Shown here in pieces: positions 42,885 through 63,327 of a stretch of 64,000 nt of DNA. This DNA is from Chryseolinea sp. H1M3-3 (GTDB lineage Bacteria > Bacteroidota > Bacteroidia > Cytophagales > Cyclobacteriaceae), in the NCBI RefSeq assembly GCF_029360725.1, contig NZ_JARKMY010000014.1:349698-413697 (forward strand), given 5' to 3'. A program made the position numbers and the translations under genes. Within the stretch, counting starts at the first letter, position 1. Each line of letters begins with the position of its first letter. The notes beneath the pieces were generated by a model. It was not told the DNA's origin, searched no databases, and saw nothing but the letters and a program-made list of their open reading frames with translations.

Positions 42885-42965
42885 GAGCCGACAGATAAAA
42901 AAGAAATATGCGAATTCGCATATATTTGGTTGGCTAAACGTAATACGTATAGTAGGTTGTTATGC
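42885..42965 (+). other. candidate attI / array entry site
   Basis: The 81 bp between the recombinase stop and the end of the first core. It contains an inverted repeat centred on GAATTC (AAATATGCGAATTCGCATAT at 42905), an AGCCGAC/GTTGGCT pair (42887-42893 and 42929-42935, one mismatch) and then the first cassette core GTTATGC (42959-42965). It does not match any of the attC families further down. Position argues for an attI-like or ancestral attC site; the inverted repeat could also be the recombinase terminator. Confidence 0.5.
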
Positions 42966-42968
42966 ACA

Positions 42969-43781
42969 ATGGCTCTTATGACAACTTGGCCACATATTAA
43001 AATTGACAACTGGACTGACTTTGTTAAGTTCATAGACTCTCTCAACGTTGAGAGTAGTTACTTGTCTCATTGGGCTTTTCGTGGACAATCGGTTTCTAGT
43101 TGGACATTAAAATCTTCGATCTCTCGACTACTTGAGAGACATAGTATCGGGCGACAGCTTGGTGACAGATTTGAATTAACGATTTTTCGCGAGTTTCTTT
43201 CGAAAGCGCACTTATACGAAGATTTTAAGCTTCGACAATTTGAGACCGGGAACACATTCCTCACTTTTACAATAATGCAGCACTACGGCTGTCCAACGCG
43301 ATTATTGGACTGGACGTCTTCACCATATGTTGCACTGTACTTTGCAGTTAATAACGACTTTTCAAATGATGGTGCCGTGTACCTATTTAATGAGACAGCT
43401 TTAAACAATGAGAATAAAGATGAAAGGTTTACCAACGGGGACGCGATTTTCTTCAATGACGAAGAGAGTGATCATATTCAAGTCTTTATGGCAAACTTTG
43501 CAACACGGAGACTAAATTCACAGCAAGGTGTTTTTAGCATTGGAGCAAATATTGACAAAGACCATGAGGAGTTGATCTATAAATCTCTGATTAATAAAAA
43601 CACGAAGGAGAGATCATACTTTGTTAAATTAATAATCGACAAACAAATTAAGATCGAGTGTCTAGCAAAATTAAAGACTATGAATGTCCGAGCAGACCAA
43701 TTGTATCCTGACCTGTATGGATTTTCGTCTTCCTTGAAAGATTTATTAGAGATAAGAGGTTGGGAAAAAGGACAGCAGTAA
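42969..43781 (+). CDS. FRG-domain protein (cassette 1)
   Basis: About 270 residues from ATG 42969, only 3 bp past the cassette core, so the message would have almost no leader unless read from upstream. The FRG domain is clear: HWAFRGQSVSSWTLKSSISR near residue 35 and QHYGCPTRLLDWTSSPYVA near residue 105, followed by LYFAVNNDF. FRG proteins occur in prophages, defence islands and next to restriction genes; their activity is unknown. The C-terminal half (NFATRRLNSQQGVFSIG) also fits the family. It is the first cassette, the position closest to the recombinase and usually the best expressed in integrons. Confidence 0.9.
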   Translation: MALMTTWPHIKIDNWTDFVKFIDSLNVESSYLSHWAFRGQSVSSWTLKSSISRLLERHSIGRQLGDRFELTIFREFLSKAHLYEDFKLRQFETGNTFLTFTIMQHYGCPTRLLDWTSSPYVALYFAVNNDFSNDGAVYLFNETALNNENKDERFTNGDAIFFNDEESDHIQVFMANFATRRLNSQQGVFSIGANIDKDHEELIYKSLINKNTKERSYFVKLIIDKQIKIECLAKLKTMNVRADQLYPDLYGFSSSLKDLLEIRGWEKGQQ

Positions 43782-43791
43782 GAGCCACTGT

Positions 43792-43920
43792 GCATAACAA
43801 CAGCTATAATACATATGCTATATCGTAGGTTCTTAAAGTGTGTGCTATTAAATTTCGGCAGCAACGTGGGACAAAGATGTAGGTATTTACACGCATACGT
43901 CTTATAGCTAGGCGTTGAAC
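43792..43920 (+). repeat. attC 1 (family D)
   Basis: Inverse core GCATAAC (43792-43798) to core GTTGAAC (43914-43920), 129 bp. Arms TATAATACATATGC and GCATACGTCTTATA pair. The cassette start GTTATGCACA...TGGCTC and end GAGCCACTGTGCATAAC pair over 16 of 17 bases. Confidence 0.9.
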
Positions 43921-44008
43921 AAAACCTTCGGTAGATTTGCTGGGTTTTCACGGAATAATCATCTTCAATAATTCGTAACTTCAGTCATAAACTTTAAATT
44001 TTATGACT

Positions 44009-44844
44009 ATGGAAAAAAAACACTGAGGCAACAGATGTTGCAGGAGATGCGGATCAGGAACTACTCAGAACGTTCCATCGCATGTTACATTCACTGTTTA
44101 AGCAGGCTTTCGCTTTATTACAAATGCTCACCTGATCGTTTGAGTTTAGACCAGGTTAAATCGTACCTACATTATTGCATAACAGAGAAACAGGAATCGA
44201 CTTCGACGTTAAACCAAATTATCAGTGCTGTTAAAATTCTTTTTGTTGACGTTCTTCATCGCTCATGGGAACCTGTTAACCTCAAGCGGCCACGAAGAGA
44301 AAAAAAGCTTCCTGTTGTGTTTTCAAAGGAAGAGATGACTGCCTTTTTTGAGGGCATAAAAAATCTAAAACACAAATCCGTTTTTATTGTCGCCTATTCT
44401 TCGGGATTGCGGCTTAATGAGGTACGTATGCTTAAGCCAACTGATGTCGATAGTGATCGAATGCAAATTTGTATTCGAAACGGCAAGGGAAGAAAAGATC
44501 GGTTTACTCTTCTATCGGAAAAGACCTTGGAAATACTTCGCAGGTATTATAAAAAATTTCGTCCAAAGAAATATTTGTTTGAAGGTCGAATTTCAGGAGA
44601 GCCAATGCATCCCAGGACGATCCAAAAAGTTTTTATGGATACTGTCTTAAAATCAGGAATAAAAAAGGATGTTTCCTTCCACAGTTTACGACATTCTTTT
44701 GCTACACACTTACTGGAGCAGGGTACAAATCTAAGATTGATTCAGCAACTGTTAGGACATAATTCTCTCCGTACTACTTCGGTTTACCTTCATCTGAGTC
44801 GTTTTGATCCTAAAGATGTGAGCAGTCCTTTTGATAATCTCTAA
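44009..44844 (+). pseudogene. tyrosine recombinase associated with the IS91-like unit (possible N-terminal frameshift)
   Basis: The intact frame runs from ATG 44035 to 44844, 269 residues. The catalytic set is present: SSGLRLNEVRML (Arg), NGKGRKDRFTLL (Lys), HSLRHSFATHL, LLGHNSLRTT and SVYLHLSR (Tyr). An upstream ATG at 44009 would give a natural start (M-E-K-K-T-L-R-Q-Q) if the run of eight A at 44013-44020 had nine; as written that frame stops at once. The internal ATG 44035 may still give an active protein because only about nine residues are missing. It resembles the array recombinase (LLSExTL, YLFEG, FATHLLE) but lacks its N-terminal domain. Confidence 0.75.
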
Positions 44845-61692: not shown

Positions 61693-62042
61693 TATTTGTC
61701 TCACTGGACAATTCCGTCTGACCTTTGATTTAACGGCAGTCAACTTTTCGTTTGGCTGCCAAGGCTTGTAAAACGACTAAGATTAGTGAATTTTAAATGG
61801 TCGTGTAAGCTCCCCCGAAAATTGGGCCACTCAAAAGTTTCGTTTTTTATTTGATTAAGCAAAATTGGATTGAATTTAATTTTACGTTTTCTGTCATAAA
61901 GAAGCGGAGCGAAACGCATTGGTTTAGATGTTGATATATGGATAACTCCAACATTTGACTTCTGCGTTGAAAAAAACATATGCTGTTGGAGTAATCCACA
62001 TTTCAACATCGTAATAATAATAGTCTTCAGCTTTTTGGTGAG

Positions 62043-62840
62043 TTAGCAAAGTACCTCTAATAGATCTATCGGTGCTTTGTAATTAAGGGATTGATGCGGT
62101 CGTTCGTAATTATAATCCAACATCCATTCTTCGATTTTCTCTCTTACCTCATGAAGTGAATAAAATATATTGGCGTTGAGTAGTTCCTTTCTTACGCTGC
62201 CATTACAACGTTCCACATAGCCATTTTGCATAGGCTTACCGGGCTGAATGTATACCAGTGTAATTCCATTCTTCCGGCACCACTCATCAAGAACGTGAGA
62301 GATAAATTCCGGACCATTGTCAACGCGAATCATTTTTGGAAGCCCTCGAAATTCCTTCAGGTATTCTAACACTCGTATCACACGAAGCGTCGGCAAGGAA
62401 AGATCTGCCTCCAAAGCCAAAATTTGTCGGTTAAAATCATCTACAATATTTAGAAGTCGAAACTTACGCCCATCCCATAGGCTATCGCTCATAAAATCAA
62501 TAGACCATACTTCGTTGATAGCGCATGGTTGATATAAAGCTTGCTTTGCTCTGGTAGGCAAACGCTTTCTAAATCGTCTTCGAATGTTAAGTTGTAATGC
62601 TGTATATATACGATATACTTTTTTGTGATTCCACATAAATCCTTTTCTTCTTAATCGGAAATATGACTGCCAAAACCCAATCGCTGGATGCTTTTCAGCC
62701 AATGATTGTAATTCATTGATTACCGGAGTATCATTTTTTGGTTTGGAAATATATTGATAGGAACTCCGTGGCACACTCAACGCTTTACACGCCTGACGTT
62801 GGCTCACACCATGTGCTTCCATCATGTGACGAACCAGCAT
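62043..62840 (-). CDS. IS3-family transposase OrfB
   Basis: 265 residues from ATG 62840. The DDE integrase core is intact: VWSIDFMSDSLWDGRKF (first D), RVDNGPEFISHVLDEW (second D) and NGYVERCNGSVRKELLN (E), and the typical YERPHQSLNYKAPIDL end. The N-terminal HTH_21-like part (KALSVPRSSYQYISKP, KHPAIGFWQSYFRLRRKG) is present. The active enzyme is normally an OrfAB fusion made by -1 frameshifting. Confidence 0.94.
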   Translation of the reverse strand: MLVRHMMEAHGVSQRQACKALSVPRSSYQYISKPKNDTPVINELQSLAEKHPAIGFWQSYFRLRRKGFMWNHKKVYRIYTALQLNIRRRFRKRLPTRAKQALYQPCAINEVWSIDFMSDSLWDGRKFRLLNIVDDFNRQILALEADLSLPTLRVIRVLEYLKEFRGLPKMIRVDNGPEFISHVLDEWCRKNGITLVYIQPGKPMQNGYVERCNGSVRKELLNANIFYSLHEVREKIEEWMLDYNYERPHQSLNYKAPIDLLEVLC

Positions 62841-62857
62841 GCCTTTTTCATCAGGCG

Positions 62858-63124
62858 TTATAGCTTTTTTGCTACCGCGTCCTTTAGTGCTTCATGTACC
62901 AGGCTCAGGTCTGCATACATTCTCTTTAAGCGTAAATTTTCTTCCTGAAGCTCTTTCATCCTCTTAACTTCGCTTGCCTCCATTCCACCATAGCGCTGGC
63001 GCCACTTATAAAATGCGGCCGTCGTAATACCCATTTCTCTGCAGATGTCTTCTGCCTTGCGACCAGCTTCATGTTCCTGGATCGCTTTTACAATTTGTGT
63101 TTCTGTGAATTTTGTTTTTTTCAT
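62858..63124 (-). CDS. IS3-family transposase OrfA
   Basis: About 88 residues from ATG 63124 (the frame opens 8 codons earlier). The HTH domain (KFTETQIVKAIQEHEAGRKA, GITTAAFYKWRQRYGGMEAS) and leucine zipper (LQEENLRLKRMYADLSL) match IS407-group OrfA. The A-AAA-AAG heptamer at 62870-62864 on the minus strand, just before the stop, is a standard -1 slippery site that would fuse OrfA to OrfB. Confidence 0.92.
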   Translation of the reverse strand: MKKTKFTETQIVKAIQEHEAGRKAEDICREMGITTAAFYKWRQRYGGMEASEVKRMKELQEENLRLKRMYADLSLVHEALKDAVAKKL

Positions 63125-63211
63125 AATAACCATTTTAAAATTGAACATTTATAGTCAACTTTCAAATGGCCGAACTTCGGGGGAGCTTACAGTCGGACAG
63201 AAATGCCCAGC

Positions 63212-63327
63212 GGCCAACACGAGTATATAAATCATATGCGGGTTTACTTTGTTATCATCATTCTCCCGATTAAATTTATTGAGCAACGGCTGACCGAGAG
63301 GTGCTTTCAACACCGCATACGCTTTAT
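63212..63327 (+). repeat. attC 24 (family C), right end cut off by an IS
   Basis: Inverse core GGCCAAC (63212-63218). The preceding bases GAAATGCCCAGC pair with the cassette 24 start (GTTGGCC..., GGCATT) across the IS407 insertion, so this is the attC of cassette 24. Arms ATATAAATCATATGCGGG and CCGCATACGCTTTAT pair, but the core is lost where the second IS3-type element begins (TGTCTTAGCCCCC at 63328). Confidence 0.88.

Follow-up and report, generated by a model that had tools for sequence, protein, structure and literature searches.

The window analysed here is a stretch of 64,000 nucleotides of contig NZ_JARKMY010000014.1 from Chryseolinea sp. H1M3-3 (Bacteroidota; positions 349,698 to 413,697 of the contig; coordinates below are counted from its first letter). 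It carries a gene for a tyrosine recombinase, here called the integrase, followed by an array of 24 co-oriented units that resemble integron cassettes (Table 1). The array spans 42959-63330. Hairpin sites limited by AAC...GTT lie between the units, and the cargo open reading frames (ORFs) are all on the + strand.

The original prediction, made from the DNA letters alone, had placed 24 consecutive units at 42959..63327, with AAC and GTT cores, unit ends complementary to each unit's own start, and all cargo on one strand with hairpins between. The units and the orientation of the cargo are borne out: 23 units are delimited by both a start and an end, and the 24th is a remnant (43914-46351) split by an IS91-type element. 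The extent was correct for the array but left out the integrase at 41712-42884, and the cores hold for most sites, four being mutated (ATC at 48891, GTG at 52699, ATT at 58679 and CTT at 60495). There are 22 complete sites of 74-256 bp, followed by a last, incomplete one (63216-~63330).

The cargo is largely unrecognisable. A Pfam scan found no match at E<=0.01 for 17 of 20 cargo proteins, and the other three matched FRG, DUF3805 (with PsbP as a weak additional match) and, weakly, ISPD_C. Nothing in the window reached the Rfam gathering scores.

Table 1. Features of the integrase locus and cassette array in the window.
Feature	Position	Strand	Site	Remarks
Integrase, tyrosine recombinase, 390 aa	41712..42884	+		directly upstream of array, co-directional
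Putative attI	42935..42961	+		ends in GTT opening first cassette; position inferred from relatives' break points
Unit 1	42959..43913	+	43796-43916	ORF with FRG domain
Remnant unit	43914..46351	+		IS91-type element inside; tyrosine recombinase 44035-44844, IS91 transposase 44934-46022
Unit 2	46352..47027	+	46911-47030
Unit 3	47028..47768	+	47698-47771
Unit 4	47769..48327	+	48256-48330	body 99.2% identical to cassette on contig C2
Unit 5	48328..49010	+	48891-49013	left core ATC
Unit 6	49011..49534	+	49463-49537
Unit 7	49535..50307	+	50191-50310
Unit 8	50308..51077	+	51006-51080
Unit 9	51078..51922	+	51805-51925
Unit 10	51923..52698	+	52580-52701	right core GTG
Unit 11	52699..53373	+	53255-53376
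Unit 12	53374..53968	+	53716-53971	long site
Unit 13	53969..54518	+	54404-54521
Unit 14	54519..55165	+	55087-55168
Unit 15	55166..55869	+	55752-55872	DUF3805 ORF; ends unmatched: hybrid end, relic half-site near 55702
Unit 16	55870..56569	+	56449-56572
Unit 17	56570..57887	+	57770-57890	two ORFs
Unit 18	57888..58678	+	58561-58681	right core ATT
Unit 19	58679..59347	+	59274-59350
Unit 20	59348..59907	+	59791-59910
Unit 21	59908..60494	+	60250-60497	long site; right core CTT
Unit 22	60495..61086	+	61013-61089
Unit 23	61087..63330	+	from 63216	IS3-family element (genes 62043-63148, minus strand); site ends early, ~63330

Cassette ends and cassette movement

The predicted complementarity of each unit's end to its own start was examined with a model-free comparison. 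Over positions 4-20, a start agrees with its own end at 11.9 of 17 positions, and with the ends of other units at 5.7 of 17. In 20 of the 23 units the own end matches best among all 23, the exceptions being those starting at 55166 (which has a hybrid end), 57888 and 60495.

Comparison of genomes shows that whole cassettes have been acquired and have changed place. Of 11 related pairs, some of which share a member, there are 8 in which homology of the integrase and the sequence downstream stops at GTT or at most 3 bases past it (L055/L056, L045/L044, L045/L028, L024/L017, L024/L018, L020/L019, L023/L021 and L065/L076, the L numbers denoting stretches from relatives). The second contig of L045/L044 has twenty-one bases left after the break, and a twelfth pair that was compared gave no match. 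A comparison of relatives for cassette change had been proposed with the original prediction, and it comes out as integron logic would have it: relatives whose integrase regions are alike have first cassettes that are unrelated, starting from a break at GTT. This points to an attI beside the integrase, with insertion at G/TT. L055 and L056, for example, are 99% identical up to the GTT break, diverge, and rejoin at the start of a later cassette. A TGCGTATA-like motif is often found ~8-15 bases before the GTT, ahead of the first cassette; of 20 loci compared, 15 have T at -15, L023 being displaced by one base in this count.

Near-identical cassettes also occur in different arrays. Unit 4 (490 bp) has a counterpart with 99.2% identity on contig C2 of the window genome, in a match that extends from GTT through the hairpin to the next GTT, and the flanks are unrelated; a search for unit 4 in plasmid records gave no match. 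Similarly, L056 and genome G117 share a 1221-bp cassette with 99.7% identity, again GTT-to-GTT. The two do not come from one species, as 9.9 kb of L056 finds a single 64% match of 450 bp in G117. Within one array, a two-cassette block is present twice with 100% identity (L011:14049-15450 and 19614-21015).

These break points bear on the alternative of a repeat family, which the original prediction had named as what would refute it. Such a family could have been scattered by transposition, of the IS91 type or another, and have enclosed genes between its copies. There are indeed IS91-type and IS3 elements inside the array. However, unit-specific termini and the exact GTT limits of the shared cassettes need recombination at the site, so that this explanation is already contradicted by the break points and is barely credible.

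Structure and predicted folding of the sites

In the window, complementarity between unit ends covers positions 1-10, is interrupted at position 11, and then resumes over ~12-17. Position 11 is A in all 23 starts, and the opposite base is C in 20 of 23, A in 2 and T in 1. Read on the bottom strand, the A.C mismatch of the top strand becomes a T.G wobble. The inner arm has a similar feature: 101 distinct sites were taken from 18 sources, and in 97 of them the base 15 nt inside AAC (+15) is A. In 89 sites the register was set by the flanking pairs alone, and 83 of these have C opposite that base. Both arms thus consist of about ten base pairs with a mismatch next to them.

Terminal self-pairing as such is not new, being described for canonical cassettes over 9-11 nt (PMC2727003). 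Canonical IntI loci of the phylum compared here pair over ~10 nt, in a profile that counts both strands, was selected on positions 4-10 and is informative from position 11 on. Long terminal pairing was accordingly rejected as a unique hallmark; the difference is that in the window pairing resumes past position 11.

A covariance model was built from 39 sites from 13 sources, picked from good-scoring rows. In these the L arm follows one ungapped register with 89.4% of all cells paired (a separate count gives 87.3%), compared with 58.4% when shuffled and 33-36% when slid; a few rows, such as L043, match this register poorly. The inner-arm A is opposite C in 36 of the 39. The sites have the AAC/GTT boxes (with the four mutated cores) and palindromic arms of attC, but in the selected sites the L arm has an A.C mismatch in place of the extrahelical bases of the folded bottom strand. 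Canonical sites have an extrahelical G and T (PMC2727003), whereas here conserved mismatches, mostly A.C, occur in both arms. Nor do the cassette starts follow the form TTRRRY, position 5 being T in 8 of 23 and position 6 being C in 12 of 23 window starts.

Among 102 stretches with integrases like that of the window (new type), a detector for A.C units picked out 26 that have at least two such units on the same strand, as against none of 12 canonical IntI loci, four of which had single units. The detector demands A.C at position 11, so that arrays such as that of L160, discussed below, escape it. In the same 102 stretches, three of which overlap others, it gave 154 units counted on both strands, and four other kinds of mismatch gave 22, 16, 13 and 32 units on one strand. 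Single A.C units are therefore often due to chance. The window sites, which were chosen by their hairpins, and the inner-arm count are free of the detector's bias.

Folding predictions point to a strand preference. Using DNA parameters, the bottom strand is predicted to be the more stable in 82 of 97 sites (103 rows, less six with poor register). For the window, the hairpin is predicted to be stronger in the circle form than in the integrated form in 21 of 22 sites, and the bottom-strand circle form beats the top-strand one in 22 of 22. The predicted means are -32.7 kcal/mol for the circle form and -23.2 for the integrated form. By these values the hairpin would gain ~9.5 kcal/mol in the circle as compared with the array, which would favour insertion of cassettes over their excision, so that cassettes may enter more readily than they leave.

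The integrase

The catalytic residues of the window integrase are present, and are invariant among its relatives. It starts with an N-terminal extension of ~110 residues (41712-42040), common to many relatives, which has no Pfam match. Among NCBIfam models it exceeds the cut-off of XerA_Arch (221.7 vs 220) and falls short of that of TIGR02249 integrase_gron, with 199.1 vs 265 bits. The best match to the IntI model in the whole genome has an E-value of 4.7e-32, far weaker than the matches in genomes over the cut-off. The entries closest to the predicted fold (mean predicted local distance difference test score 79.9, predicted template modelling score 0.49) are those of XerA and IntI.

The ~42-residue additional domain of IntI is absent: the alignment to the solved IntI structure (PDB 2a3v) splits at the place of this domain, at query positions 288/313, compared with 179/247 in IntI. 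Consistent with this, the GKG and HxLRH motifs, both matched in 35 of 90 new-type rows, lie 65-66 residues apart in 34 of these, the remaining row having 212, and 107 apart in all 11 canonical rows that match both (out of 14).

In a tree of 53 rows, canonical IntI form one clade with support 100/100, and the new type lies outside it. IntI and the new type together are separated (100/99) from two other proteins of the window genome, one of which exceeds the XerD cut-off while the other has XerC as its best, sub-cut-off match. The new-type integrases may or may not themselves be a clade (approximately unbiased test, p 0.52), and the tree also leaves room for IntI to have arisen within their family.

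Could this be an ordinary chromosomal integron of the IntI type that happens to have unusual sites? In both, cassette arrays of mostly unknown cargo lie by an integrase and attI, with AAC/GTT boxes and pairing cassette ends, and the integrase belongs to the same larger clade as IntI, apart from the host's XerD and XerC-like proteins. The missing domain already contradicts this idea, and the TIGR02249 score, the motif spacing and the position outside the IntI clade speak against it. The sites differ as well: in the 12 canonical loci the site model made one weak match (E 0.0075), and none had two or more A.C units. We consider an IntI-type integron very unlikely. On the other hand, the original prediction that this might be a distinct integron lineage agrees well with the missing domain, the separate 100/100 clade of IntI and the mismatches in both arms. 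In the genome comparisons the system behaves like an integron, but since both the IntI domain and the extrahelical bases are wanting, we class it as an integron-like variant outside the IntI integrons.

A second alternative is recombination of the dif kind on double-stranded sites, the hairpins being by-products of inverted arms. Xer sites have arms of ~11 bp. The sites here also have two arms of ~11 bp, and the recombinase is close to XerA and XerD in sequence and fold. However, this leaves unexplained both the covariation of a unit's two ends over ~17 nt and the strand-biased mismatch. Modules of the pdif type have short sites, of ~28 bp, in alternating orientation, while the sites here are 74-256 bp long with long hairpins, all in one orientation, and the integrase lies beside the array. 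On this evidence dif-like recombination appears improbable.

Distribution in Bacteroidota and interpretation

The original prediction had suggested building a site model and scanning Bacteroidota with it, and had framed the finding within Cytophagia. The latter was too narrow, as sites and integrase kin are found beyond Cytophagia. The site model was run with a limited number of candidates scored per genome. At a threshold of E<=1e-4 it has matches in 190 of the 247 genomes sampled from the window's class, covering 113 of the 136 genera sampled. Of 51 individually chosen genomes from other classes of the phylum, 21 have matches. When an integrase is counted as present at E<=1e-40, 124 of the 247 genomes have both sites and integrase, 5 have the integrase only, 66 sites only and 52 neither, a co-occurrence with a Fisher p of 1e-14, uncorrected for kinship. 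Canonical IntI exceeds its cut-off in 84 of 296 genomes of the phylum, and among those listed one (G095) is in the window's class. In the window genome itself, further sites lie on contigs C2, C10, C12, C13 and C14.

A single scan of relatives gave 80 loci with integrase kin, 79 of them with an integrase frame. Sites lie downstream of the integrase on the same strand, at 0.3-5.4 kb, in 31 of the 79 (8 of which had contributed sites to the model), upstream on the opposite strand in 8, and elsewhere in 1; in 26 the contig stops within 1.5 kb. Site matches at E<=0.01 were obtained in 12 of another 19 stretches that have such integrases. The co-directional layout of the window and of the 31 loci resembles that of the chromosomal integron of Treponema; that integron uses intI, and here 8 of the 79 loci show the ordinary divergent layout instead. 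One related integrase, 42.6% identical, is carried by a plasmid of Persicobacter sp. JZB09 (L147), with two site matches 5-9 kb downstream. Carriers also include Flavobacterium species that can be cultured (F. difficile and F. amnicola).

It is worth adding that the window genome has a second integrase-like recombinase, on contigs C14 (L179) and C2 (L180), with a fragment on C10 (L181). It is 32-34% identical to the window integrase, and on C14 and C2 it lies divergently, with its 5' end directly against sites like those of the window. The recombinase of the IS91-type element in the window (44035-46022) groups with the L091/L092 lineage (support 97/89).

One might propose that another enzyme, either the host Xer proteins or the L091/L092 lineage, moves the cassettes, the adjacent integrase being a passenger. 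The genomes with sites and no close integrase would fit this, as would the arrays abutted by the second recombinase type on C14 and C2 (and its fragment on C10) and the copy of unit 4 on C2, which is on the other side of that recombinase. Against it, 39 of the 79 new-type loci have sites beside the integrase in one of the two layouts, and the break points follow the integrase region. A passenger integrase is distinctly improbable.

We hypothesise instead that the locus is a chromosomal integron-like platform, in which an IntI-related integrase that lacks the IntI domain inserts and removes circular cassettes at the adjacent attI. From the sequence comparisons this is very probably correct. The adjacent integrase would be the acting enzyme, and recombination would take place at GTT between attI and the cassette site. 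Its substrate, to judge from the folding predictions, would be the bottom strand of each cassette's hairpin, and the role of the extrahelical bases in classical attC would fall to the mismatch towards the end of either arm of ~11 bp.

Several observations weigh against this hypothesis. Sites occur without an integrase at E<=1e-40 in 66 of the 247 genomes, 13 of the 79 integrase loci have no site despite at least 1.5 kb of sequence, and 7 of the 19 further stretches have no site match, including L161-L163 at ~20 kb. L195 (G063) has four new-type sites on the + strand, and a canonical IntI gene follows ~3.7 kb after the nearest of them. Among the 11 related pairs, some share a member, three (L057/L066, L082/L079 and L048/L060) have homology ending elsewhere than GTT, and the second contig of L024/L017 has just three bases left after the break. 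The top strand is predicted to be the more stable in 15 of 97 sites, and the three long sites, when folded singly, outdo their shuffled versions by a modest margin (bottom z -2.7, -2.7 and -1.4). Finally, the mismatch at position 11 is A.A in two of the 23 window units and in 18 of 19 units of L160, where it is a mismatch on either strand.

L160 comes from a complete contig (G032), with an integrase 52% identical to that of the window and 20 model sites in a row behind it; its ends pair mainly over positions 1-9. It rules out A.C at position 11 as a universal mark. The conserved feature is therefore an A at position 11 that has no Watson-Crick partner, the wobble being its commoner form. Several cassettes in L160 repeat with identical ends inside the array, one starting GTTGTAGCC being present five times.

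Arrays of the same site type also occur with no integrase in the stretch compared, namely L196 and L198 in the complete genome G117. These are similar to clusters of attC sites lacking integron integrases (CALIN), but built of the new site type.

According to PMC9668308 and PMC2426708, IntI is identified and searched for by its additional domain near patch III. A family that lacks this domain could therefore be missed. Complete integrons are described as rare in Bacteroidetes, with only In0 earlier and then one in Salinibacter ruber (PMC9024848), and the phylum is among the integron carriers listed in PMC8618304. In the open-access literature, which here leaves out preprints and most subscription papers, we recognised no description of such a system.

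A bolder proposal is that this is a second, IntI-independent integron kingdom and the prevailing cassette-capture system of Bacteroidota. Its integrases would recognise a constant mismatch located where each hairpin arm ends (in most lineages a G.T wobble) and not flipped-out bases, and domain-bearing IntI would have arisen later from the wider family, adding both the extra domain and the extrahelical attC bases. On this proposal the system would have been overlooked because integron searches demand the IntI domain. On balance we are slightly more inclined to doubt it than to accept it.

If the mechanism is confirmed, these arrays would represent a large overlooked reservoir of mobile cassettes. 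Comparing two natural solutions would then make it possible to test directly what the IntI domain and the extrahelical bases contribute to the choice of strand.

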